Notes under the pieces: generated by a model
Database searches by the model: none
The model's input: the letters and a program-made list of their open reading frames with translations, nothing else
What the model was told of the DNA's origin: nothing
Assembly: GCF_013344685.1 (NCBI RefSeq)
Contig: NZ_CP050138.1
Coordinates: forward strand, 62,001 to 126,000
Length of the DNA stretch: 64,000 nucleotides
Origin: Sphingomonas sp. CL5.1
Lineage (GTDB): Bacteria; Pseudomonadota; Alphaproteobacteria; Sphingomonadales; Sphingomonadaceae
Direction: 5' to 3'
Shown here: positions 4,358 to 52,187 of the stretch, piece by piece
How the letters are laid out: each line of letters begins with the position of its first letter
Position numbering within the stretch: position 1 is the stretch's first letter
Program-made: the position numbers and the translations under genes

Positions 4358-4993
4358 TCAGGCGGCGGCGGCGAGGCGCACAGTGCCGATATCGCCGGGC
4401 GTGCCGGCAAGCCGACGCTGGAACGCGGCCACGTCGAGCAACTCGGAGATCGGCGCGCGGTGAGGCTTGCCAACCTCCTGCCCGTCGCGACAGCGGCTGA
4501 TCGATACCTCGCTGTCCGGGAGGAAGCCGCGCGGGACCACGCGAACGGCGAGATCCGCGTGGCGCAACTCCGTCGTGCCGTCTTCGTGATCGGCACCCAT
4601 GACGGTGTTGATACGGGCGTCGTCCGCGTCGAGGCCGATGGCCGCGGCGAGACGTGCAAGCGCGCGACGCGCCTGATAGTGGAAGGTACGTTTGGCGTGG
4701 TAGTTTCCGCCGACGCTCTTCCCGGCGATGTCGAGCAGCGCTGGCGCGGCGGCGACCGCCCGGCGATCCGCTTCGCAACGGAGGCGAAGGACGTTCACGC
4801 TGGGCGTATCGCGTTCGGCAACGTCTGCCAGATGGCGGATGAGAAGAAGGATTGCCGCGTCGCCGGCGACAGGCTTGCCGGCACGCTGACAATCGTCGAC
4901 GGCGGCGTTGAGGGCGTGGAGCGCCGCCGACAGATGGTCCAGACCGGCGGGGGAAAGGGCCTGATTGTGGCGGTAGAGCGTATCGTAGAGCAT
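4358..4993 (-). CDS. Conserved plasmid protein of unknown function
   Basis: A 211-residue soluble protein (MLYDTLYRHNQALSP). It has a strong AAGGAGG Shine-Dalgarno 6 nt before the ATG and codon use typical of the region. It is mostly helical, with an acidic middle and basic stretches such as YHAKRTFHYQARRAL. No enzymatic motif is recognised. It starts a short run of overlapping or closely spaced minus-strand genes (this gene, the DUF6927-like gene, the ATP-pyrophosphatase gene) and is preceded by a stem-loop leader at 5020-5050. Confidence 0.65.
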   Translation of the reverse strand: MLYDTLYRHNQALSPAGLDHLSAALHALNAAVDDCQRAGKPVAGDAAILLLIRHLADVAERDTPSVNVLRLRCEADRRAVAAAPALLDIAGKSVGGNYHAKRTFHYQARRALARLAAAIGLDADDARINTVMGADHEDGTTELRHADLAVRVVPRGFLPDSEVSISRCRDGQEVGKPHRAPISELLDVAAFQRRLAGTPGDIGTVRLAAAA

Positions 4994-25145: not shown

Positions 25146-25373
25146 CTAGCCGCAACAGCTGGCCCCCTTTCCCTCGATCTGGATAGGCGGACACGGAACG
25201 TTTCCATACGAACAAAATACACAACAATCGCCGAGCTTGGGCCGGAGCACGACTTTGCAGCCGGAACAGTCGTAGAAAAACTGACAGGCGTTCGTTGGCA
25301 TCTGCTCTGTTTTCACCGTGCCGCATTCGGGACAGGTGATCGTCGATCTTAGCTCTGGGATAATGTCAGACAT
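25146..25373 (-). CDS. GDCCVxC-domain protein
   Basis: A 75-residue protein with a zinc-ribbon-like start (TCPECG), the name-giving motif GDCCVFC and a C-terminal CCG, nine cysteines in all. Homologues are called GDCCVxC domain (seleno)proteins. Here all positions are Cys with no in-frame TGA. Its start overlaps the end of the MerT-like gene by 8 nt (ATGTCTGA), a strong coupling. It probably receives a thiophilic metal from the transporter; this is inferred. Confidence 0.82.
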   Translation of the reverse strand: MSDIIPELRSTITCPECGTVKTEQMPTNACQFFYDCSGCKVVLRPKLGDCCVFCSYGNVPCPPIQIEGKGASCCG

Positions 25374-25734
25374 AGATGTAGCCCAGCCAGAGCAGCACGG
25401 CACCGATCAACAGGCCGGTAAGGGTCAATAGCCGCGTTGTGCGAGAAGTGCATGCGCCGTCCGGTCCGCAACGGGCAGCGGCGGCTTGCTGACGAATGAG
25501 AAGCGCGGCTCCTGCCAGCAGGCATAATGCGCCGGAAACGAGCAACGGGACGCGATAGGGCACCGCGACATCGGCGACCCCGACCAGCCATGCCGATCCG
25601 ATGCCTAATGAGGCGAGCGTTACCGGCAGGCCGCAACAGGCCGCGACCGCAAAACTGGCCGCAATCCCACCGAGAGTGAGAGAGGCGGCGCCCACCCCCT
25701 TCGGCGCAGGCAGGTCGGGTAATGGCTCTGGCAT
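25366..25734 (-). CDS. merT: MerT-like mercuric/metal transporter
   Basis: A 122-residue protein with three membrane helices. AACCGLPVTLASLGIGSAW matches the first MerT helix (C-C-x-x-P, then SLGIGGAW). A second cysteine pair (RCGPDGAC) sits in the loop before the last helix, also as in MerT. It brings a soft metal into the cell. It is driven by the MerR-type promoter at 25763-25793 and followed by the coupled GDCCVxC gene. The absence of merP and merA makes this an incomplete mer set or a different uptake device. Confidence 0.75.
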   Translation of the reverse strand: MPEPLPDLPAPKGVGAASLTLGGIAASFAVAACCGLPVTLASLGIGSAWLVGVADVAVPYRVPLLVSGALCLLAGAALLIRQQAAAARCGPDGACTSRTTRLLTLTGLLIGAVLLWLGYIYV

Positions 25735-25762
25735 TGCGACTCCTTGTGATGGGTTCGCGACT

Positions 25763-25793
25763 GCCCTAGCGTCTGTAGTGACTACAGACTCAA
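25763..25793 (-). promoter_or_regulatory. MerR-type promoter for the merT-like operon
   Basis: On the minus strand: -35 TTGAGT (25788-25793), 19-bp spacer, -10 TAGGGC (25763-25768). A perfect 19-bp dyad GTCTGTAGT-G-ACTACAGAC (25771-25789) fills the spacer. The regulator gene is divergent and starts at 25804. Confidence 0.85.
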
Positions 25794-25803
25794 GCGGATT
25801 TTT

Positions 25804-26247
25804 ATGATAACGATATCCGGCACCACGATCCCGATCGGCGAACTCTCGCAGCGTACCGGCTGCAACATCGAGACGATCCGCTACTACGAGCGTATCGGCG
25901 TACTTCCGGTGCCACTGCGCCGTGGTCGATACCGCGCCTATGGACCGTCGGACGTGCGGCGACTGTCGTTCGTGCGACGTGCGCGTGAACTGGGCTTCCC
26001 GATCGACGCGGTACGAGCGCTGCTCGCGCTCGCTGATGGCGGCGGTGCTTCGTGTGCGCAGGCGCTAGATCTGGCGAGCCAGCATCTACGGGATGTTCGC
26101 GTGAAAATCGCCGATCTTCGCCGCATGGAACGAGCGCTTGGCGACACCGTCGATGCCTGTGAGGCGGGCGACACCATGGGCTGTCCCTTGCTAGAAACGC
26201 TTTGCACCGCGGAAGCGGTCGGGATCAGGTTAGGCGATCGATCGTGA
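25804..26247 (+). CDS. MerR-family metal-responsive regulator
   Basis: A 147-residue regulator. The HTH reads [20 protein letters not shown], followed by [20 protein letters not shown], and the C-terminal loop has three cysteines (C at about residue 81, then [11 protein letters not shown]). It is divergent from the merT-like operon with a perfect 9+1+9 operator between them. It converges with arsH and overlaps its 3' end by 18 bp. The Cys spacing fits the MerR/ZntR group, and the inducing metal is not evident. Confidence 0.85.
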
Positions 26248-26970
26248 TGCCAGGTCGTTCGCAGCGTCCCGCTTGGCTGCCGCAGACTTGCGCTCGGAAT
26301 AGCGATCGACAAGCTGGTCCGCATGGCCGCGCGTCAGCACGGTAAAACGGACCAGTTCCTCCATCACATCGACGATGCGGTCATAATAGCTGGACGGCCT
26401 CAAGCGACCTGCTTCGTCGAACTCCTTGAATGCCATCGCGATGCTCGACTGGTTCGGGATCGTGAACATCCGCATCCAGCGCCCGAGCAGGCGCAACGTG
26501 TTCACCGCGTTAAATGACTGCGATCCGCCCGATACCTGCATCACCGCGAGCGTCCGCCCCTGGGTGGGTCTCATACCGCCGAACTCGAGCGGCAAGTGGT
26601 CTATCTGTGCCTTAATGATGCCGGTGATCTGTCCATGCCGTTCCGGGCTGCACCAGACTTGGCCTTCCGACCACAGTGCATGCTGGCGCAATTCATGGAC
26701 GGCCGGGTGATCGTCGCCCTTGACCTGGTCGGGCAGTGGAAGATCGGACGGATCGAATATACGCACCTCGGCGCCGAACAGGACCAGCAGGCGCGCTGCT
26801 TCCTCGACCGCAAGCAGGCTGAATGAACGCTCGCGGAGCGAACCATAGAGCAGCAGGATCCGCGGTGGATGGTCGAGCGAGCCGAGGCCGTTTGCGAGAT
26901 CAAGGCGAACAACGTCACGATCGAGCGCTGGCATATGATCGGGGTCGGCAAGGCTACGAAGACGCGACAT
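26230..26970 (-). CDS. arsH: ArsH, NADPH-dependent FMN reductase of arsenic resistance
   Basis: A 246-residue flavodoxin-fold protein. The FMN-binding GSLRERSFS is near residue 44, followed by [21 protein letters not shown] and [10 protein letters not shown], all diagnostic of ArsH. ArsH oxidises trivalent organoarsenicals. Its start overlaps the arsN2 stop by one base (ATG at 26970), so they are coupled. The 3' end overlaps the convergent MerR gene. Confidence 0.92.
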
Positions 26971-27401
26971 CAGGTAATCCGCTTGAAGAGTGAGGCAGCG
27001 TTCGCCGGGCAGAGCGTTCGAAACTCGGCCGATCTGGCGACGGTGTCCGGCGCAGTGGAGCGCTCGGCGGTCTCATAGCCGTGCCGTCGGAAGAGCGGTT
27101 CAGCCGTGGTGGTGAGCAAATAGAGGGCGGCTACCCCTTCATCGGTTGCCAGCCGCTCGCTGGCGCCGAGGACGGCCGCGCCCAAACCGGCACCGCATCG
27201 CTCGGGCTTTACGATCAGGGAACGCAATAGCCGATCAGGCCCATCGCCTTCGATGCCGCCATAGCCAATGATGCCGCCGTCGTCCTCGAACCGAAAGAAG
27301 CGACGATCCGTTTCGGTAAGATCGCTGATCGGTAAGCCCGCGTCAGCGAGTTCGGCCGCCAGCTCGAACAATGATGCTGCGTTGAGAGGGCTCGCAATCA
27401 T
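26970..27401 (-). CDS. arsN2: ArsN2-type GNAT acetyltransferase
   Basis: A 143-residue GNAT protein. It has [26 protein letters not shown], then [15 protein letters not shown] (acetyl-CoA loop) and LFRRHGYE at the C-terminal strand, matching the ArsN2 group found in ars operons. The ATG at 27401 lies inside the truncated arsC frame and has no good Shine-Dalgarno. The first residues look shorter than usual, as if a deletion trimmed the 5' end. Confidence 0.82.
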
Positions 27402-27585
27402 GCTGGTATTCGATCCGCTCGAGCAGGGCGATGGCATCGGGATTGACCGCATCCTTGGGGAAGCTCCCGGCCGAAAAGGCGCGGAAGCGCCCTTCACCCA
27501 GCTTGTTGAGCGCGCTTTCCGCCAGGATCGAGCGTGCCGAATTGCCGGTGCACAGAAAGAGGATGTTGAGAATACGATCGGACAT
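27343..27585 (-). pseudogene. arsC: Truncated arsC (LMW phosphatase-type arsenate reductase)
   Basis: The frame begins MSDRILNILFLCTGNSARSI, with the catalytic P-loop C-x-x-N-S-x-R-S of thioredoxin-coupled arsenate reductases. Homology runs to about residue 60 (NPDAIALLERI). The frame then enters the arsN2 coding region out of frame and stops after 80 residues. The second half of the enzyme, including the D-P loop, is missing, so it is very likely inactive. The breakpoint is around 27400-27412. A GGAGACC Shine-Dalgarno remains upstream. Confidence 0.85.
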
Positions 27586-27596
27586 GATGGTCTCCA

Positions 27597-27929
27597 TTAG
27601 CAGCAGGGTATGAGTTCGGCGATCAGCGGCTCGCACAGCTCCGCCTTGCCGCCGCAGCAATCCTTGACGAGGAACAGAGTCAGCGCCTTCAACTGGTTGA
27701 GATTAACGCGATAGTTGATGATTCGGCTGCGCCGTTCCGCGCGGACCAGTCCGGCGCGCGCCAAGGTGGCGAGATGTACTGACATCGTGTTCTGCGGGAC
27801 ATCGAGTGCGCGCGCGACTTCGCCAGCGGCGAGCCCCTCTGGTTCGTGCCGAACCAGAAGCCGGAAAGCGTCGAGGCGAGTACCCTGTGCGAGTGCGCCT
27901 AAGGCCGCGATGGTTGATTGGGTATCCAT
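27597..27929 (-). CDS. arsR: ArsR-family arsenical repressor
   Basis: A 110-residue winged-HTH protein (EVARALDVPQNTMSVHLATLARAGLV). Metal-thiol clusters lie at the C-terminus (KDCCGG, ELCEP, PCC at the end), as in C-terminal-site ArsR proteins. The ATG at 27929 is one base from an operator-like dyad, so the mRNA leader is very short or absent. It is the first gene of the arsR-arsC'-arsN2-arsH operon; the arsC ATG lies 12 bp after its stop. Confidence 0.88.
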   Translation of the reverse strand: MDTQSTIAALGALAQGTRLDAFRLLVRHEPEGLAAGEVARALDVPQNTMSVHLATLARAGLVRAERRSRIINYRVNLNQLKALTLFLVKDCCGGKAELCEPLIAELIPCC

Positions 27930-27949
27930 ATATCTACTGTAGTGGATAT
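27930..27949 (-). promoter_or_regulatory. ArsR operator dyad
   Basis: An imperfect palindrome with half-sites ATATCTACT and ATATCCACT (reverse complement of the right arm), directly upstream of the arsR ATG. It matches the usual pattern of autoregulation in arsR operons. Confidence 0.6.
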
Positions 27950-28134
27950 TATGGATATGGCAATTGTGTTGTTTCTTCGAATTGGCTTTCGCTCTTGGAG
28001 CCTCGGACGGAAAAGTCTTCATCGCCAAGGGCAGTTTCCATAGCTGCTTAGCTCGGCAACGAGCCTTCCGTGGAAGGCCTAGAAGGTCATAGTTCGTGTC
28101 GGTGCCCGCCTTATGGCGCGGCCAACAAAGAAAA

Positions 28135-28193: not shown

Positions 28194-28571
28194 CTAGTTC
28201 TGGGCTCTCTCGGCCGCCATTGCCGCCATTTCAGTGGACGGAACCCAAGTGCGCACGGGTGTTCGGAGCGGCGCCCTTGGTCCATAATTGGGCAGCGCCC
28301 GCCATTCATAGTGGCCCGATCCGTCGTTCATCGCGAGCGCAACGACAGGCAGCTTTTGGGTCACAGGCTTGCCGTTCGCATCGACGAGAACACGAACCGG
28401 CGCCCGAAGAGGCATGCGCGGACCATATTGCGGTGACGCACGCCACTCATAATGATTGCCAGTGCTGACGTTGCTGACGTCCTGGGCGTTCGCGGCCGAG
28501 GGAACCGCGAGGGCAGCGAGCATCGACGTGGCGGACGCGAAGATGGCGGCGGTAGAAATGAACTTGGTCAT
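28194..28571 (-). CDS. Secreted HYEW-repeat protein (cassette 1, gene B)
   Basis: A 125-residue exported protein. The signal peptide covers about residues 1-29 (cleavage after SAANA). Two tandem copies of a motif follow: HYEWRASPQYGPRMPLRAPV and HYEWRALPNYGPRAPLRTPV, each continuing R-x-W/L-V. The same motif occurs once in the protein at 45908-46201. The ATG at 28571 follows AAGGA. It lies 110 bp after gene A (28682-29059) and before a terminator. I do not recognise a described family. The setting beside sigF/nrsF and the copy in the copper locus point to metal stress. Confidence 0.75.
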   Translation of the reverse strand: MTKFISTAAIFASATSMLAALAVPSAANAQDVSNVSTGNHYEWRASPQYGPRMPLRAPVRVLVDANGKPVTQKLPVVALAMNDGSGHYEWRALPNYGPRAPLRTPVRTWVPSTEMAAMAAERAQN

Positions 28572-28681
28572 GATAATCATCCTTTGAATTGAGCTTGAAG
28601 TGAGTTCGAACGGAGGGCGCGCGAGCTTCGTCGGGTGGATCGATCGCGATCCCCCACGGCGCATCCGCGCGTGTTACGAAT

Positions 28682-29059
28682 TCAGATCAGGCTCGGAGGA
28701 TGAGGCTCAGGACCGTCGGAGCGGCCGGCAAGAAACGAGACGGGCATGCGATGAAATATCTCAGGCGCGCGCGATACCGCCGCCGTTGATCCATGATTTT
28801 CGTTCAGAGCAACGAGAGTGGCGCAACTCATCTGTACTACGCAGTCGGAGGTCATCTTTTTGCAGGGCACGGAGTTCTCGCTCTTCGAGGCCGATTTCAT
28901 GGCCATCCCCGCGCAATCCATGCCGCCCATTCCTGCGCTTTGCTGCGCGACCGTTACCGGCCTTGCAAGCGCAGAGTTTTGCGCAAACGCCACTTGCTGA
29001 CCAAACAGGCCAATCCAGGCGCTGAGCAAAAGCAGCAAAGGGAACGCGCGTTTGAGCAC
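28682..29059 (-). CDS. Small secreted Met/Cys protein (cassette 1, gene A)
   Basis: A 125-residue protein starting MLKRAFPLLLLLSAWIGLFG, a clear signal peptide. The mature part has MGGMDCAGMAMK, then PCKKMTSDCVVQMSC and a C-terminal PEPHPPSLI. It aligns with the protein at 45431-45805, which starts VKRALPLFLLLGALIGLLG and has EDCMKMM, PCKGMTLAC and PEPEPPTLLG. Both precede an HYEW-motif gene. A metal-binding periplasmic role is likely from the Met and Cys residues. It is preceded by a GTAACC-N16-CGAA promoter. Confidence 0.72.
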   Translation of the reverse strand: MLKRAFPLLLLLSAWIGLFGQQVAFAQNSALARPVTVAQQSAGMGGMDCAGMAMKSASKSENSVPCKKMTSDCVVQMSCATLVALNENHGSTAAVSRAPEIFHRMPVSFLAGRSDGPEPHPPSLI

Positions 29060-29100
29060 TATCAGTTCCTGTCATGACCGATCAGCCGGTCATTGAGGAG

Positions 29101-29126
29101 TTCGTCGTCGAGGCCGAAAAGGTTAC
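29101..29126 (-). promoter_or_regulatory. Candidate SigF-dependent ECF promoter
   Basis: On the minus strand GTAACC (29121-29126), a 16-bp spacer, then CGAA (29101-29104), about 42 bp before the gene A start. This matches my recollection of the Caulobacter sigma-F promoter (GTAACC-N16-CGAA). The sigF and nrsF homologues lie immediately upstream at 29294-30495. Confidence 0.65.
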
Positions 29127-29293: not shown

Positions 29294-29935
29294 TCACCAA
29301 CGCAGCAAACGCGGGCCCAGGAGCGCGCCGATCAGAGCGCACAGCAGGAGAGGGACACCGAACCAGATCGCGACGAACGCAAGTGATCCTCCTGGATGGT
29401 GCAGGGCGAATGCGGTGGTGCCAATTGCCCCGGCGACCAGACCGGCGACGCCGCCCGTCAGGCGAAGCCGTGTCGGAGCCTCGTCGCGAAGATACCACAC
29501 CAGCGCCACGAAGGGCGCAACGGCAGCCACCGGAATACACATGAGGCACGCGGCCCATTGCGGCCCGAAGATCATCGCTCGCCACTCCGCGGGGTTTTCC
29601 CGCGACAGAGCGACGCCGGCCGCCAGGACGAGACCGGAAAACAGCACGGCGATTGCCGTAAGCGCACCGCGGCCGACTTTGCCGGGCCGCGCGGCTATGC
29701 TTAGGAAGCGTGCACCGGCAATCGTCAAACTGAGGGTGAAGGCAAGCGTCAACGCGGTGAGCCCAAGGAAGCGTGCACCAAGAGCTTGGCCTGGCATGCC
29801 AAAGATGACGGCAACGAGGCAAAAAGCGGCTGCGGCGCCAATGCCGATGGCGCCCAGAAGCGCGACGCGCCGCTTGGCACCGTTTACGGTCTCGACATTC
29901 GTTCCCAGCATGTCGATAAGATCATCTGTCCTCAT
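29294..29935 (-). CDS. nrsF: NrsF-type (DUF1109) anti-sigma membrane protein
   Basis: A 213-residue protein with six predicted membrane helices after a short cytosolic start (MRTDDLIDMLGTNVETV). It matches the DUF1109/NrsF anti-sigma proteins that hold SigF-type sigma factors until chromium, cadmium or oxidative stress. Cysteines in WAACLMCIP and LLLCALIG could be the sensing pair. The start overlaps the sigma gene by ATGA, as in other sigF-nrsF pairs. Confidence 0.85.
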   Translation of the reverse strand: MRTDDLIDMLGTNVETVNGAKRRVALLGAIGIGAAAAFCLVAVIFGMPGQALGARFLGLTALTLAFTLSLTIAGARFLSIAARPGKVGRGALTAIAVLFSGLVLAAGVALSRENPAEWRAMIFGPQWAACLMCIPVAAVAPFVALVWYLRDEAPTRLRLTGGVAGLVAGAIGTTAFALHHPGGSLAFVAIWFGVPLLLCALIGALLGPRLLRW

Positions 29936-30495
29936 AGCGGATTCCTGTTGCTGACCAGCTGCGCCAGCGCCTTCAATCCGCGATGCACGGTCACTTTGAT
30001 CGCCGATTCCGACATGTTCGATCGCTCGGCCGCTTCGCTAACACTCAATCCGTCGAGCTTCACCAGTTGTATAACCTGCCGCGTCTTGGGCTTGAGCTGA
30101 CTGAGGAGATCTTCCAGGTCGAGGCGGCTTTCGATCCCGGGTGACTCTTCGTCGGCAATCAGATCTTCGGCATCCTCCACCGGGATGGCAAGGCGTACGC
30201 CCTTCGTTCGTCTCAAAAAGTCGATCATTCGATACCGCGCAATCGCATGCACCCAAGGCGTCAGCAATTGGCTGCGGTCGTAAGTGTGCCGACGCGTATG
30301 AAGCGCGATCAATGTCTCTTGAACAAGATCTTCTGCATCGGCGGCGCTGCGGCCTACTCGCTCGAACTGGCCGTTGAAGTAGCCGCGTAAATAGGCGCTC
30401 AGCCGCGACAGAAGTTTCTTATACGCAGCATCATCACCTTCCAGGCCGGCTAGCATCATCATGCGCAACAGCGGCTCTTCGGATCTTATGTTCAT
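29932..30495 (-). CDS. sigF: ECF sigma factor, SigF type
   Basis: A 187-residue ECF sigma factor. Region 2 is at GRSAADAEDLVQETLIALHT with TPWVHAIARYRMIDFLRR. Region 4 is at LKPKTRQVIQLVKLDGLSV and AAERSNMSESAIKVTVHRGL. It pairs with the coupled NrsF anti-sigma factor. A matching promoter (29101-29126) serves the adjacent cassette; no such motif was seen in front of sigF itself. Confidence 0.9.
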   Translation of the reverse strand: MNIRSEEPLLRMMMLAGLEGDDAAYKKLLSRLSAYLRGYFNGQFERVGRSAADAEDLVQETLIALHTRRHTYDRSQLLTPWVHAIARYRMIDFLRRTKGVRLAIPVEDAEDLIADEESPGIESRLDLEDLLSQLKPKTRQVIQLVKLDGLSVSEAAERSNMSESAIKVTVHRGLKALAQLVSNRNPL

Positions 30496-45430: not shown

Positions 45431-45805
45431 GTGAAACGTGCGCTTCCCCTCTTTCTCCTGCTCGGAGCCCTGATCGGTCTGCTCGGCCAAGAAGCCGCCT
45501 TTGCGTCAGCACCGCCTGCAGTGTCCGTATCGATGGCGATGACCGGGACGGCCGATTCCGGCATGTCCGAAGACTGCATGAAGATGATGACGCAGCAACA
45601 ACAGCCCGCGCAGAAACCCTGCAAGGGCATGACGCTCGCCTGCATCGCCGCGATGGGCTGTGTCATTCCCATGGCGGTTCGCAATGACGCACCGACGCTT
45701 GCGGTGCGCGCGGCCGATCCGACCCTGGCCTTCTGGTCGACCACCACTGTCCTGCGCGGCAGTGACCTTGCTCCCGAACCGGAACCGCCGACTCTCCTTG
45801 GCTGA
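45431..45805 (+). CDS. Small secreted Met/Cys protein (cassette 2, gene A)
   Basis: A 124-residue protein starting at GTG 45431 (VKRALPLFLLLGALIGLLGQ), a signal peptide. The mature part has SEDCMKMMTQQQ, PCKGMTLACIAAMGC and the C-terminal PEPEPPTLLG. It is homologous to the protein at 28682-29059 in the same relative position, before an HYEW-motif gene. No described family is recognised. The setting here is the copper locus. Confidence 0.72.
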   Translation: MKRALPLFLLLGALIGLLGQEAAFASAPPAVSVSMAMTGTADSGMSEDCMKMMTQQQQPAQKPCKGMTLACIAAMGCVIPMAVRNDAPTLAVRAADPTLAFWSTTTVLRGSDLAPEPEPPTLLG

Positions 45806-45907
45806 TCGAACTCGGCCGTAAGGCTGGAAGGGTCGTTGCGCCTGTCGCGTATCGAACCTCCTGTCCAACCTGCGGCTACCCCGATGATTTGCCAAAGGAT
45901 TACAGTC

Positions 45908-46201
45908 ATGAAGAACCGTGTTTTCTATGCGCTGCTGGGCGTAGCCCTTGCCGCACCCGTCGCCGCATTCGCCGGCCAACCGGACCACAGCCAACAGTCC
46001 GGCCATTATGAGTGGAAGTCGGTCCCGCAATATGGACCGCGTGCGTCGCTCCAGGGACAGCGGCGCGTCTGGGTGCCTGATACCACGCAAGTGGTGGCGT
46101 GCGACTGCGACATGATGAAGATGAGCAGCGCCGACGCTGCTGATTGCATGAAGCAGATGCACAGCATGGCATCGCCTTCGTCGGCCCCGTCGGTCGGTTA
46201 G
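45908..46201 (+). CDS. Secreted HYEW-motif protein (cassette 2, gene B)
   Basis: A 97-residue exported protein. The signal peptide (KNRVFYALLGVALAAPVAAFA) is followed by one copy of the motif (HYEWKSVPQYGPRASLQGQR, then RVWVP). The C-terminal tail has CDCDMMKMSSADAADCMKQM, a Cys/Met cluster able to bind copper. It is related to 28194-28571, which has two motif copies and no Cys tail. AAAGGA precedes the ATG at 45908. Confidence 0.78.
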   Translation: MKNRVFYALLGVALAAPVAAFAGQPDHSQQSGHYEWKSVPQYGPRASLQGQRRVWVPDTTQVVACDCDMMKMSSADAADCMKQMHSMASPSSAPSVG

Positions 46202-46336
46202 GCAAAAGTTCTGGCCGCTTCAGGTCGCATAGACGGCTAGGCCAGCAGTGGCGGCGGAATGCCCCCCATTCCGCCGCCACTGATATGCCTGTCATGGTGT
46301 GCGCGGCCGATCCGGTCCTCCGATCAGGAGTTTTCC

Positions 46337-47566
46337 ATGCGATTGTTTGTTTGTGCGCCGCTGCTCGCGGCGATCCCCGGGATTGCGTTCGCCGGTCCGC
46401 TGACCTTCGATGCGGCGCTTCGCCAGGCTAAGCACGATGCTCCCTCCATTCGAGCGAAGACACTTGGCACTGATGCCGCGCGTTCGGCGCGTGGGGCCGC
46501 GGGAACGCTGCCCGATCCCACCCTCGCAGTGGGCGTAGACAGCTTCCCGATATCAGGACCGCTCGCGTTCGAGCCGCAGCGGGACAATTTTACCATGGCG
46601 CGGGTGGGCGTGTCTCAGGACATTCCCAACCTCGCCAAGCGCCATGCACAGCAGGCGCGCGCCGATAGCGACATCAGGGCGGCGGAGGCTGATACGGCGG
46701 TCGAGGCGCGCACCGTCGAGGTAGGTACGGCGTTGGCGTGGATCAATCTGGCCTATGCCGAGCGCAGGCTGGCCGCTCTCGACGACGTTCTGTCCCACCT
46801 CGAGCGTGTCGTAAGAACGACACCGAGCGCGATCGCATCGGGCAACGCCCGGCCGGCGCAATCACTTGCCGGTCAGCAGGCGGTCGCCATGATGCAGGAT
46901 CGCCGCAGCGAACTGGTCTCGAGCGTGGCGCGGGCCCGCGCTACACTGACCCGGTGGACCGGCGATCCGGCGCCTGAGATTGCCGGGCCAATCCCCGAAT
47001 TCCCGGTCGATGGGACCGAGCTTCGTGCTGGCCTCGATCGCCATCCCACCATCCAGATGATCGATGCCCAGGCTGGGCAAGCCGATGCCGATGTAAGGGT
47101 GGCGGATGCCGGTCGGCGTTCTGACTTCGGCGTGAATGTCGCCTATCAGCGCCGCGATCCCCGTTTCGGCGATTATGTCTCTGCTGGCGTGACGGTCAGC
47201 CTGCCGTTCTTCACCCGCAATCGTCAGAACGCCGGAATCGCCGCTGCCCAGGCCAATGCCGGGCGCGTTCTGGCCGAACGCGAAGCGGCGCGCCGCGCTC
47301 TTGCTGCCGACCTCGATGCCGATATCGCCGACCATGTCATGCACCACGAACAATGGATGCGCGCGCAAGGAACGCTGCAGCCGCTGGCCGAGCAGCGCGT
47401 GAAACTGGAGACCGCCAGCTACGGTGCTGGACGCGCCAGTCTTGTCGATGTCGCCGACGCTTATGCCGCGCTGGCCGACGCAACCCTCACTGTCCTCGAC
47501 CGCGAGGCGCTGGTTGCCGCTGACGGCGCGCGATTGACTCTCACATACCGGAGCGAAGATCGATGA
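46337..47566 (+). CDS. cusC: Outer-membrane efflux protein (TolC/CusC type)
   Basis: A 409-residue TolC-family protein with signal peptide (MRLFVCAPLLAAIPGIAFA). The repeated outer-membrane efflux pattern is visible (TFDAALRQAKHDAPSIRA, SLVDVADAYAALADATLTVLD). It forms the outer channel of the tripartite pump encoded with the next two genes. AGGAG precedes ATG 46337. The stop overlaps the adaptor gene by ATGA. Confidence 0.88.
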   Translation: MRLFVCAPLLAAIPGIAFAGPLTFDAALRQAKHDAPSIRAKTLGTDAARSARGAAGTLPDPTLAVGVDSFPISGPLAFEPQRDNFTMARVGVSQDIPNLAKRHAQQARADSDIRAAEADTAVEARTVEVGTALAWINLAYAERRLAALDDVLSHLERVVRTTPSAIASGNARPAQSLAGQQAVAMMQDRRSELVSSVARARATLTRWTGDPAPEIAGPIPEFPVDGTELRAGLDRHPTIQMIDAQAGQADADVRVADAGRRSDFGVNVAYQRRDPRFGDYVSAGVTVSLPFFTRNRQNAGIAAAQANAGRVLAEREAARRALAADLDADIADHVMHHEQWMRAQGTLQPLAEQRVKLETASYGAGRASLVDVADAYAALADATLTVLDREALVAADGARLTLTYRSEDR

Positions 47567-49053
47567 GCCTCGAGATATCACCGCGCGCCCGGCTGGGTCT
47601 TGCCGCCGCAGCGCTCGCCCTCGTCGCTGGTGGCGCAGGCTATGGCATCGCCCATCTCGGTGGGAGCGAAACCGCTCCTACGCAAACAGCCGATTCCGGT
47701 CGTAAGGCGCTTTACTGGTACGATCCTATGGTGCCGCAAGAGCACTACAACAATCCGGATACGCTTTCGTCGATGGGGATGAAGACCATCCCCAAATATG
47801 CCGATGAAGGCGGCGGCAACGCGCCGGGCATCCGCATCGATCCCGCTGCGTCCCAAACGCTGGGGCTGCGCGCGGTCGCCGTACGACGGGGACAACTGAC
47901 CAGCAGCCTGACCGCCACCGGCACGATCGACTTCAACCAGCGCGATGTCGCGATCGTCCAGGCGCGCGCTGGCGGGTTCGTTCAAAGGGTCTATGCCCGG
48001 GCGCCTGGCGACATCATTGGCGCCGGTGCCCCACTCGCCGACCTGCTCGTTCCCGAATGGGGTGGCGCACAGGCCGAGTTCCTGGCGGTCCGCCGCACCG
48101 GGAGCGCGGCTTTGATACAGGCAGCGCGCCAGCGGCTCATACTGCTTGGCATGCCGTCTGGTACGGTCGCATCGGTTGAGCGAACGGGTCGGCCGCACAA
48201 TGTCATCACGATTTCCACGCCAACCGGCGGCGTTATCAAGACGTTAGATGTGCGGGCCGGCATGACGATGACGGCAGGACAGACGCTTGCCGAGGTCAAC
48301 GGCCTTGGCACGGTCTGGCTCAATGCTGCCGTGCCCGAAGCCATCGCAGGACCGCTCAAGCCCGGACAAACCGTGCAGGCCACGCTTGCCGTATTCCCCG
48401 GCGAGACATTGTCGGGCCGTGTCTCGGCGATCCTGCCTACGACGCAGGCCGACAGCCGGACGCTCACCGTGCGGATCGAACTACCCAATCGTGGTGGTCG
48501 TCTGCGCCCGGGCATGTTCGCAACCGTGTCGTTCGGCGGCAGCGCACAGCCAGCATTGCTCGTACCCTCCGAGGCGCTGATCCGCACCGGCAAGCGGACC
48601 TTGGTGATGCTTGCGCTAGATAAGGGCCGCTACCGGCCGGCCGAGGTGCAAACCGGCAGGGAATCCGGGGACGACACCGAGATCCTCGCTGGGCTCTCCG
48701 AAGGCGAGAAGGTCATCGCTTCGGGCCAATTCCTGATCGACTCCGAGGCTAGTCTTTCCGGCGTGCAGGCACGGCCGATCGGTGGCGGTGTGCCGATGGC
48801 AGTTGGCAAACGCGCAGCTACGGCCGCGCTCTACGAGACCGTAGGCAAAATCGAGCAGCTTACCGCCAATTCGGTGACGCTGAGCCACGAGCCGGTGCCG
48901 GCGATTGGCTGGCCGGCGATGACGATGACCTTCCAGCTTCCCGATCCGAACGTCGCGCGCGGCCTGAAGACGGGCGATCGTGTCCGTTTCGGGTTCGATC
49001 AACCGCCGGCCGGACCGACCGTGCGGCGCATGGCGAAGGTGGCGGGGCAGTGA
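47563..49053 (+). CDS. cusB: RND periplasmic adaptor, CusB type with fused CusF-like domain
   Basis: A 496-residue membrane-fusion protein. After an N-terminal helix, a heavy-metal-binding domain ([21 protein letters not shown]) is followed by the lipoyl, beta-barrel and hairpin segments. The C-terminus (about residues 415-496) carries a CusF-like domain ([20 protein letters not shown] and [10 protein letters not shown]). It links the inner RND pump and the outer channel for Cu(I)/Ag(I). It is coupled to cusC and to cusA (GTGA). Confidence 0.92.
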
Positions 49054-52000
49054 TCGCCCATCTCATCCGCTGGTCGGTCAGGAACCGCTTCTTCGTCCTG
49101 ATCGGTGTATTGGCCCTTATCGGCGTGGGTGTCTGGGCGGTGCGATCAACCGCGATCGACGCGCTACCGGACCTCTCCGACACGCAGGTCATCATCCGCA
49201 CCAGCTATCCGGGACAGGCGCCGCAGATCGTCGAGAATCAGGTCACTTATCCGCTGACGACCACCATGCTGTCGGTGCCGGGTGCCAAGACGGTGCGCGG
49301 CTATTCCTTCTTCGGCGACAGCTTCGTCTATGTGATCTTCGAGGACGGCACCGATCTCTATTGGGCGCGCAGCCGCGTGCTCGAATATCTCAATCAGGTA
49401 CAGGGCCGCCTGCCGGCGAGCGCCCGCAGTGCGCTCGGTCCCGATGCAACCGGTGTCGGCTGGGTCTATGAATATGCCCTGGTCGATAAGACCGGCCAGC
49501 ACGATCTGGCCCAGCTTCGCGCGTTTCAGGACTGGTTCCTGCGCTACGAGCTGAAAACCGTTCCCGGTGTTGCCGAGGTCGCCAGCATCGGCGGCATGGT
49601 CAAGCAGTACCAGGTGCTGCTCGATCCGGTGAAGCTCGCCGCTTACGGTATCACGCACCAGCAGGCCGTGCAGGCGATCCAACAGGCCAATCAGGAAGCG
49701 GGCGGCTCCGTGCTGGAGATGGCCGAGGCCGAATATATGGTCCGTGCCTCGGGCTATCTGAAGACGCTCGACGATTTCCGGGCCATTCCCCTGCGGACCG
49801 CAATGGGCGGTGTGCCCGTGCGGCTAGGCGATGTCGCCACGGTCCAGATTGGCCCCGAGATGCGGCGCGGAATCGCCGAGTTAAACGGCGAAGGCGAGGT
49901 CGCCGGCGGCGTCGTGATCCTGCGGTCGGGCAAGAATGCGCGCGAAACCATCGCCGCGGTCAAGGACAAGCTCGCCACCCTGAAGGCGAGCCTGCCGCCC
50001 GGCGTCGAGATCGTCACCACCTATGACCGATCGCAGCTCATCGACCGTGCGGTCGATAACCTTACCCACAAGCTGATCGAGGAGTTTATCGTCGTCGCGA
50101 TCGTCTGCGGCCTGTTCCTCTGGCACGCCCGTTCGGCGCTGGTTGCGATCCTGACCCTGCCGATAGGCGTGCTGGCGGCGTTCGTCGTAATGCGGTTCCA
50201 GGGGGTAAACGCCAACATCATGTCGCTGGGCGGCATTGCCATCGCGATCGGCGCGATGGTCGATGCGGCGGTGGTCATGATCGAGAACGCGCACAAGAAG
50301 ATCGAGCGCTGGGAACATGACAACCCGCAGCAGCTGCTCGATAATCCGACCCGCTGGACCGTAGTCACAGATGCTGCAGCCGAGGTTGGCCCGGCGCTAT
50401 TCTTCAGCCTCTTGATCATCACACTTTCGTTCATTCCCGTGTTCACATTGGAGGGGCAGGAGGGCCGGCTATTCGCGCCACTCGCCTTCACCAAGACCTA
50501 TGCGATGGCATCGGCCGCGATCCTCTCGGTGACGCTGGTCCCCATCCTGATGGGGTATCTCATCCGGGGCCGCATTCCCGCCGAGCAGTCCAACCCGATC
50601 AATCGCTGGCTGACCAATATCTACCGGCCCGCCCTCGACTGGACGATGAAAAAGCCCAAGGCGGTGCTGCTGATTGCGGTTCTGGTCTTCGCAACGACGG
50701 CTTGGCCGCTCTCCCGGCTCGGCGGCGAGTTCATGCCGAATATGGACGAAGGCGACCTGCTCTATATGCCCTCGGCCTTGCCGGGACTGTCGGCGGCAAA
50801 GGCCTCGCAACTGCTCCAGCAGACCGACCGGCTGATCAAGACGGTGCCCGAGGTTGAGAGCGTGTTCGGCAAGGCGGGACGCGCCGAGACTGCCACCGAT
50901 CCCGCGCCGCTCGAAATGTTCGAGACCACCATCCAGTTCAAGCCGCGTGACCAATGGCGGCCCGGTATGACCACGGACAAGCTCGTTGAAGAGCTGGACC
51001 GCACGGTGAAGCTACCCGGCCTCGCCAATGTCTGGGTGCCGCCGATCCGTAACCGCATCGACATGCTCGCGACCGGCATCAAGAGTCCGATCGGGGTCAA
51101 GGTCTCGGGCGCCGACCTCGCCCAGCTCGACCGCATCGCCCATGATATCGAGACGGTCGCCAAGACCGTGCCGGGCGTCAGTTCGGCACTGGCCGAGCGA
51201 TTGACCGGCGGGCGCTATGTCGATGTCGATATCGATCGTGCCGCCGCCGCCCGCTTCGGGCTCAACATCGCCGACGTGCAGGCGATCGTTTCGGGCGCGA
51301 TCGGTGGCGAGACCATTGGCGAAACCGTCGAAGGCCTGGCGCGCTACCCGATCAGCGTGCGCTATCCACGTGAGCTGCGCGACAGCCTCGAAGGGCTGCG
51401 CACGCTTCCGGTCCTGACGCCTTCCGGCCAGCAAATCACCCTGGGCACCGTGGCGAAGGTTTCGATCGCCGAAGGGCCGCCGATGCTCAAGACCGAGAAT
51501 GCGCGGCCATCGACCTGGGTCTACGTCGATGTACGCGGCCGCGATCTCGCTTCGGTGGTAGGCGACCTGCAACGCGCGGTGGCGAAGGAGGTGAAGCTCT
51601 CGCCGGGCGTCAGCATCGCTTATTCCGGACAGTTCGAATATCTCCAGCGGGCCGTCGAAAAGCTCAAGCTGGTCGTGCCGGCCACGTTGCTGATCATCTT
51701 CGTACTGCTCTTCATGATTTTCGGTCGGTTCGACGAAGCCGCGCTGATCATGGGCACGCTCCCGTTCGCGCTCACCGGCGGTATCTGGACGCTTTACCTG
51801 CTCGGCTTCAACCAGTCGGTGGCGACGGGCGTCGGGTTCATCGCGCTGGCCGGCGTGTCGGCCGAGTTCGGCGTAGTCATGTTGATCTACCTCAAGAATG
51901 CGCTGGAAGAGCGTGGTGACGATCCTGATGCCGACCAGATCGAGGCGGCGGTCCGCGAAGGCGCGCTGCTCCGCGTCCGCCCCAAGGCAATGACAGTCGC

Positions 52001-52187
52001 AGTGATCCTCGCCGGCTTGTTGCCGATCCTGCTCGGCTCGGGCGCGGGCTCAGAGGTGATGAGCCGGATCGCCGCGCCTATGATCGGCGGCATGCTCACC
52101 GCACCACTGCTCTCGATGTTCGTCCTGCCCGCTGCCTATCTGTTGCTTCGGCGGCGGCGAGTAAAATCCCTCCACCAACCTGTTTAA
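49050..52187 (+). CDS. cusA: CusA-type heavy-metal RND efflux pump
   Basis: A 1045-residue pump with 12 membrane helices and two large periplasmic loops. It starts at GTG 49050 ([19 protein letters not shown]). It has [20 protein letters not shown], then [20 protein letters not shown] with the helix-4 acidic site typical of heavy-metal RNDs, and [16 protein letters not shown]. Met residues in the periplasmic cleft suggest Cu(I)/Ag(I). Confidence 0.94.

Follow-up and report, generated by a model that had tools for sequence, protein, structure and literature searches.

A widespread pair of small genes in sphingomonads reads as a CutF-like regulatory leader with a predicted anti-Shine–Dalgarno in its last codons and an uncharacterised secreted-type target

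In Rhodobacter capsulatus, the small protein CutF is described as a cis-acting copper sensor that is exported while it is being translated, and a stem-loop shields the Shine–Dalgarno (SD) sequence of the gene that follows (PMC9973294). The manner in which this next gene is opened has been worked out on the cutFOG operon (PMC9973294, PMC8456105): CutF ends in PEPEGPPPRL, and production of CutO requires both the Cys and the Pro motif of CutF (PMC8456105). CutF-like leaders are reported to be widespread, relatives of CutF often sit upstream of outer-membrane efflux protein (OEP) genes, and, when tested in a LepB fusion, the CutF PP motif did not cause strong stalling (PMC9973294). The same paper cites CopL of Xanthomonas and Stenotrophomonas, a small leader that is required in cis for a copper operon. 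In Caulobacter, GTAACC-N16-CGAA is the promoter of sigma-F (PMC3511200); copper induces the regulon of this factor, and a sigF mutant shows sensitivity to the metal (PMC8224329).

We analyse a stretch of 64,000 nucleotides from Sphingomonas sp. CL5.1 (contig NZ_CP050138.1, positions 62,001 to 126,000), hereafter the window, which is part of a 126.7 kb contig (C2) in a two-contig genome. A preliminary description reported a cassette of two small secreted-type genes, A and B, present twice in the same order. The cassette and its coordinates were confirmed (Table 1): A1 and A2 are homologous when A1 is searched against its own genome (E 2.9e-15, 38% identity; a third, weak match appears at E 0.011), and so are B2 and B1 (E 7.8e-9, with the second B1 motif copy at 6.8e-7). 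Profile searches of this genome at E <= 1e-3 place A at two sites and B at the same two, in three matches. Judged on sequence, the similarity between the two A genes and between the two B genes is far beyond chance. The two HYEW..P.YGPR copies of B1, and the single copy of B2 with its Cys/Met tail, were seen again. A further HYEW-coding match on the chromosome was set aside as an extra B: its frame carries no other B features. Overall, the A–B pair is real and widespread, and we read it as a regulatory leader followed by an uncharacterised target; the CutF-like kind of leader is known, and the predicted anti-SD within the leader's last codons is new.

Table 1. Features of the two A–B copies and their neighbours (window positions)
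Feature	Position	Strand	Remarks
A1, CutF-like leader gene	28682-29059	-	GTG start, 125 aa; ends ...PEPHPPSLI-stop
B1, small secreted-type protein	28194-28571	-	125 aa; two HYEW-x5-YGPR units, without Cys/Met tail
A2, CutF-like leader gene	45431-45805	+	GTG start, 124 aa; ends ...PEPEPPTLLG-stop
B2, small secreted-type protein	45908-46201	+	97 aa; one HYEW-x5-YGPR unit and CDCDMMK...DCMK tail
Sigma-F-type ECF promoter GTAACC-N16-CGAA, 5' of A1	29101-29126	-	exact match
Predicted anti-SD region of A1, His-Pro-Pro codons to just beyond stop	28676-28702	-	pairs with B1 SD
B1 SD, AAGGA	28580-28584	-	
Predicted anti-SD of A2, last codons CTC CTT GGC and stop TGA	45794-45805	+	complementary to B2 SD region
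B2 SD region, GCCAAAGGA	45891-45899	+	
NrsF anti-sigma factor	29294-29935	-	Pfam NrsF E 1.5e-44
ECF sigma factor	29932-30495	-	Pfam Sigma70_r4_2 5.2e-14, Sigma70_r2 2.9e-12
Outer-membrane efflux protein, CusC type, next gene after B2	46331-47566	+	Pfam OEP 3.2e-33
CusB-type adaptor with C-terminal CusF domain	47563-49053	+	Pfam HlyD_D23 1.1e-67, CusF_Ec 4.2e-24
Putative RND permease, CusA type	49050-52187	+	ORF; the gene at the same position is annotated RND permease in Sphingomonas bisphenolicum plasmid pBAR4

The two copies occupy different settings. Copy 2 is flanked by a DUF411 gene and by an OEP / CusB(F) / RND permease operon, and in the adaptor of this operon (47563-49053) CusF is fused to CusB. 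Copy 1 comes after an ECF sigma factor and its NrsF anti-sigma factor; in the window it stands alone. What was first called an ECF sigma pair does contain an ECF sigma factor, but Pfam identifies the partner as an NrsF-type anti-sigma factor. Beside copy 1 (25146-28028) lies a metal cluster resembling an arsenic/mercury region, with a MerT-like gene (below the Pfam cut-off), a MerR regulator, an FMN reductase, a GNAT acetyltransferase, and an HTH regulator. For B1, A2, and B2 we chose the starts that have a Shine–Dalgarno and a hydrophobic N terminus; a mechanical list of open reading frames gives earlier first starts for all three.

By analogy, A is most likely a cis-acting leader resembling the CutF-like copper-sensing nascent proteins. 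The published criteria for that class include length, position of the PP motif, and a downstream gene (PMC9973294), and the A proteins of the window agree on these three: 125 and 124 residues lie under the limit of 150; the ends PEPHPPSLI and PEPEPPTLLG place PP within the last 15 residues; and the gaps to B on the same strand, 110 nt from A1 to B1 and 102 nt from A2 to B2, fall within 1000 nt. The published criteria also name a cleavable Sec signal peptide; on this point, both proteins show by eye a positively charged start and a hydrophobic segment. Proteins of the A family have a common layout, with an export-type, hydrophobic N terminus, a stretch rich in Met, conserved Cys residues, and a C terminus of the form P-E-P-x-P-P. 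Conserved columns were initially counted on 22 chosen A and 22 chosen B proteins; Cys and PP were then recounted in full on 34 distinct A proteins. All four Cys columns are kept in 31/34 (L098, L101, and L102 each miss one), the spacing C-x6-C-x5-C occurs in 31/34, both window copies included, and CxxxC in 0/34. PP lies within the last 15 residues of 33/34, L102 being the exception, and exactly four residues follow it in 57 of 62 unique junctions, usually ending in Leu-Gly. An identity of A as a DUF2946 protein was rejected: the family is not among the Pfam matches and is absent from those of all 22 A proteins tested, up to E 10. Searched against PDB, the A profile gave one match, to a ribonuclease (E 0.017), which we take as chance.

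The new element concerns the junction. We predict from sequence that a mask lies in the last codons and stop of A, which pair with the SD of B. In copy 2, the last codons and stop of A2 (CTCCTTGGCTGA) face the SD region of B2 (GCCAAAGGA), and in one relative (L113) the complement is perfect (CCTTGGCTGA/TCAGCCAAGG). We reduced 110 junctions to 62 unique ones and these to 25 divergent representatives, with B starts set by rule as the in-frame ATG with the best SD; L102, where no ATG passed the rule, was left out. Across the 62 unique junctions, partition-function folding predicts the B SD to be paired to the A end at 0.79 and unpaired at 0.17 on average; the values for pairing within the window are 0.83 for copy 2 and 0.79 for copy 1. 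Pairing exceeds 0.5 in 25/25 representatives, and it does so in 0/10 and 4/57 junctions of two control gene sets and in 3/25 at the junction that follows within these operons, from B to OEP. Relatedness among the sequences means that such counts are not independent draws.

Recoding and swapping address the codon choice at the A end and the match between the two arms. Under random synonymous recoding, the mean duplex was weaker in 61/62 junctions (p <= 0.05 singly in 19/62), and the SD was more exposed in 22/25, the mean rising from 0.18 to 0.32. Among the representatives, matched arms reached -15.75 kcal/mol versus -11.88 for swapped arms (0/20,000 permutations): leader ends pair better with their own SDs than with those of others, and hence the two arms co-vary. 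A leader's own SD ranked first in 4/25 and among the top three in 14/25, and poor ranks include those of window copy 1 (22/25), L167 (17), and L098 (15). In copy 1 the predicted anti-SD is shifted into the His-Pro-Pro codons; since it does well in folding (0.79) but poorly in the narrower duplex test (22/25), copy 1 is the weaker case. Compensatory changes are visible in individual pairs, such as CCTTGG/CCAAGG versus CCTCGG/CCGAGG and CTTGCTTGA/TCAAGCAAG, and by eye in the divergent L105 leader (CCTGATCTG/CAGATCAGG).

Predicted masking extends to leaders that precede other genes. Six leaders of the family that lack a recognised B were tested: in 5/6, the SD of the gene that follows, OEP-like by eye in most of the six, was predicted to be masked, the exception being L099 (0.00). 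Of two leaders tested outside the family, one was predicted to mask (0.72) and the other, L237, was not (0.11). Target starts for leaders without B were picked by eye; L092, which lies at a contig end, and the leaders L236 and L240 from outside the family were left out of this test.

The fixed distance between PP and stop permits a geometric reading. The leading edge of a ribosome lies 16 nt downstream. When the P site holds the second Pro of PP, a ribosome modelled with this edge reaches the first base of the A stop codon in 57/62 junctions. A ribosome paused there would thus sit on the anti-SD and free B. The modelled paused footprint blocks the 5' arm and raises SD accessibility in 58/62, the mean going only from 0.17 to 0.47.

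We propose the following sequence of events. At rest, base pairing between the last codons and stop of A (for example CTCCTTGGCTGA) and the B SD would hold B silent. As A emerges and is exported, its conserved Cys may bind copper or a similar soft metal, and metal-bound A would slow the ribosome on its C-terminal PExxPP-type motif. Once its SD is freed, B would be made and exported: a Cys/Met/His/Trp protein, probably binding Cu(I) in the periplasm, where it may support CusCBA-type efflux, the genes of which follow copy 2. Copy 1 would in addition be transcribed by the neighbouring ECF sigma factor upon release of the latter from NrsF. We regard it as probable that A is a cis-acting, metal-sensing, CutF-like leader and B its regulated target; the metal, the arrest, and the direction of control are inferred, as are export and the function of B. 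Evenly poised, in our judgment, is a fuller version in which the arrangement is a dual-code switch. The last codons of A would be selected both as the tail that follows the arrest motif and as the anti-SD, such that pausing and unmasking form one geometric event. The switch would move between targets (B or CusC), would in some family members operate beneath an ECF sigma factor, and would drive an unnamed family of secreted HYEW/Met-Cys metal-binding proteins.

Rival arrangements of the same parts deserve consideration. An SD masked by the end of the upstream gene is all that plain translational coupling requires: a ribosome finishing A would always open the SD of B, yielding a fixed ratio without metal sensing, with A an ordinary secreted protein. 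Such coupling does not need a C-terminal PP at a fixed distance from the stop (four residues in 57/62), nor conserved Cys (all four in 31/34), and leaders with the same tail stand before other genes too; we consider it unlikely. A and B could instead be secreted copper-binding partners that act in trans in the periplasm, with A a chaperone and with pairing at the junction tuning only their ratio. Signal-like N termini and Met/Cys motifs in both proteins agree with such a partnership, as does the original proposal of CutF as a chaperone (PMC8456105); yet the final A codons are fitted to the B SD, with which they co-vary, and cutF works in cis only (PMC9973294). We find this arrangement improbable.

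The sign of control might also be reversed, so that copper relieves a pause on A and downstream expression falls, as for CruR of Bordetella pertussis, which acts so with a Pro motif and CXXC (PMC9426467). Several features of the A–B loci make this the least probable of the three. The genes downstream are efflux genes, expected to be copper-induced; the junctions measure 64-110 nt and not 162 nt; the conserved element is a predicted anti-SD; and RAPP is not found in the window copies, while CxxC occurs in only 2/34 A proteins. The preferred reading, a CutF-like leader that opens B in response to metal, also recasts an earlier suggestion. The preliminary description had proposed that the cassette forms a metal- or redox-stress envelope system. 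A real, recurrent pair tied to copper efflux and, for copy 1, to an ECF sigma factor and NrsF is supported; A, however, is most likely a cis-acting leader and not a second component, as its likeness to CutF and the predicted SD masking indicate.

The B proteins have a signal-like N terminus. In alignments of single-motif B proteins (22 and 40 sequences), Gly, Glu, and Gly-Pro around HYEW..GPR are invariant and Trp is nearly so, and a CxC-MM...C tail is conserved; the 22-sequence alignment excludes the double-motif B1 type. An AlphaFold model of B2 suggests a beta hairpin (32-39/50-57) and a Cys/Met helix (67-86) at low confidence (mean pLDDT 61.6, pTM 0.29), and a search with this low-confidence model returned no PDB fold match at E <= 1e-3. 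No PDB sequence relative of B was found either, the three matches lying at E 0.27-0.63. From the composition of B, and from its position after a metal-sensing-type leader and before copper-type efflux genes, we infer that B may bind Cu(I) in the periplasm.

As the preliminary description had it, the A and B proteins of the window have no described function: they match no NCBIfam model and have a single chance match in Pfam, polyhedrin on B1 at E 0.02. A check on whether B is a fragment of a long-known enzyme, named there as a possible refutation, found no known enzyme in NCBIfam, Pfam, or PDB, and we reject that identity. Relatives of B give weak Pfam matches, the best being DUF4148 at E 0.003 in 5/22. 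Three other roles were considered and set aside. B does not behave as a second leader for cusC, as its end is predicted to pair with the cusC SD above 0.5 in 3/25 only. It is not needed as a stand-in for a missing CusF, because the CusB of the window already carries a CusF domain. Finally, a bufferin-type modified peptide was considered because ECF/NrsF occurs in bufferin clusters, and no modifying enzyme was present among the neighbours scanned.

The pair is common among relatives of this genome. Across a sample of 249 family genomes, searches with A1 detected A in 56 and searches with B2 detected B in 30. Four genomes had B without A at the survey threshold: in G245, G159, and G123 a divergent PP-tailed leader ends just upstream of B (two recognised by the A profile, one by eye), and in G025 B begins at the contig edge. 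In a class-wide sample of 289 genomes, few of them from the window's family, B was not found outside the window's own genome, and A was found in four genomes, three of them outside the family; these class surveys scored at most 18 (B) or 15 (A) candidates per genome. In three loci outside the family (L236, L237, and L238), an A-like leader is followed by a different small secreted-type protein, with YKFELV...KPV.DA in L237 and L238.

A profile check of whether A–B adjacency is widespread, suggested at the outset, found that it is. A GTDB scan with a six-sequence alignment of the B2 type yielded 89 relatives, of which the best 80 were kept; given this query and selection, the scan tells little about B1-type genes. 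The relatives are labelled as sphingomonads, save a few labelled bacterial or alphaproteobacterial. A lies directly upstream in 77 of these best 80 loci. Of the remaining three, two end at a contig edge, and one (L120) has A about 1.4 kb upstream; this wider gap possibly arose through insertion. The gene after the 77 pairs is a same-strand OEP gene in 73, with a contig end in two and something else in two, and a DUF411 gene precedes A in 31/77. In one genome with a normal A–B pair, a second, shorter B-like frame is present (L081, 10360-10579), with no leader by profile.

Plasmids carry the family as well. B2-like sequence occurs in 39 of 72,556 plasmid records, all from sphingomonad genera, and 26 of the 39 plasmids are predicted to be conjugative. 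The double-motif type is rarer: eight plasmid records match B1. On plasmid p1 of Sphingobium sp. CAP-1, a double-motif B is directly preceded by an A gene that carries no annotation (L188, about 4400-4780), and in Tardibacter plasmid pHSL4 both B types flank one cus operon. In the plasmid records H12, H22, H28, and H33-H37, B has no listed annotated feature in the PLSDB gene table, itself incomplete. In a protein database searched at E <= 1e-3, 803 proteins are A-like and 397 are B-like, the B search having scored the 7991 candidates with the most shared words; the names among the matches listed, 120 each for A and B, are 'hypothetical' or 'uncharacterized', with one 'cysteine rich repeat protein'. 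No paper on the A or B family was found in the open-access literature searched. Among the data searched, the B family is found only in sphingomonads.

A transcriptional layer is suggested for part of the family. An exact GTAACC-N16-CGAA lies just upstream of A1, within the given segment, which ends at 29126; copy 1 thus has the two marks we looked for in a sigma-F regulon member, the promoter motif and an ECF sigma/NrsF pair in the genome. Exact sites with a spacing of 15-17 stand upstream of 11 of 77 distinct leaders (a different set from the 77 A–B pairs), whereas 200 shuffles gave 0.045 on average and never more than 1; upstream of these leaders, neither the reversed pattern nor the opposite strand gave a match. 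The flanking DNA examined around the other ten site-bearing leaders contained no ECF/NrsF match. Genome-wide, the pattern is at chance level (10 versus 13 for the reversed control), and a second genome-wide count was not enriched either: the pattern stands out only by where it lies, 5' of leaders and close to nrsF. Six relatives (G155, G246, G224, G242, G085, and G200) have exact sigma-F-type sites within about 3 kb of nrsF. NrsF is present in 7/8 genomes with an exact leader site versus 7/16 without, one of the latter seven being a 23-residue fragment, and it is also present in G007, where the leader site has one mismatch. The presence of NrsF and that of a leader site are only loosely associated.

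The A–B family supplies dozens of naturally occurring variants whose predicted mask has co-varying arms and a nearly constant distance to PP, which makes silent codon changes a direct test of the CutF-like model. For the secreted-type B proteins, which the records examined list as 'hypothetical' or not at all, the pair provides a setting and a predicted role; 39 sphingomonad plasmid records carry this B family, mostly beside copper-type efflux genes. Lastly, the sigma-F-type sites near nrsF point to sphingomonad sigma-F regulons that could be mapped.

Each of the closest described systems shares part of this design. The sigma-F/NrsF system of Caulobacter (PMC3511200, PMC8224329) has the same promoter motif and the same ECF sigma factor with NrsF, and is induced by chromate, cadmium, and copper; in the A–B case the promoter precedes a leader, and the available portions of the Caulobacter description do not mention A–B genes. 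CopL resembles A as a small cis leader before copper genes, but the corresponding model (NCBIfam CopL_fam, NF033807) is matched by only 3/22 A relatives, at best with E 1.3e-4, and A1 and A2 match 0 families. The CruR (DUF2946) uORF of B. pertussis (PMC9426467) is likewise a small exported-type leader with Cys and Pro motifs and copper-related genes downstream; it differs in the opposite sign proposed for it, and A has no DUF2946 match, while CXXC and RAPP are both absent from the window copies. The likeness is closest to CutF of the R. capsulatus cutFOG operon (PMC9973294): a small exported-type leader with a Cys motif and a C-terminal PEP..PP, copper genes downstream, and a shielded SD of the next gene, in our case by prediction only (0.83 for A2, 0.79 for A1). 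The target there is the multicopper oxidase CutO, whereas here it would be B, followed in copy 2 by cusCBA. The Cys are spaced CxxxC in CutF and C-x6-C-x5-C in A. The CutF stem-loop, as far as its description in the available text goes, is intergenic, in a region of about 40 bp, whereas the predicted anti-SD of A is part of the leader gene itself, formed by its last codons and stop.
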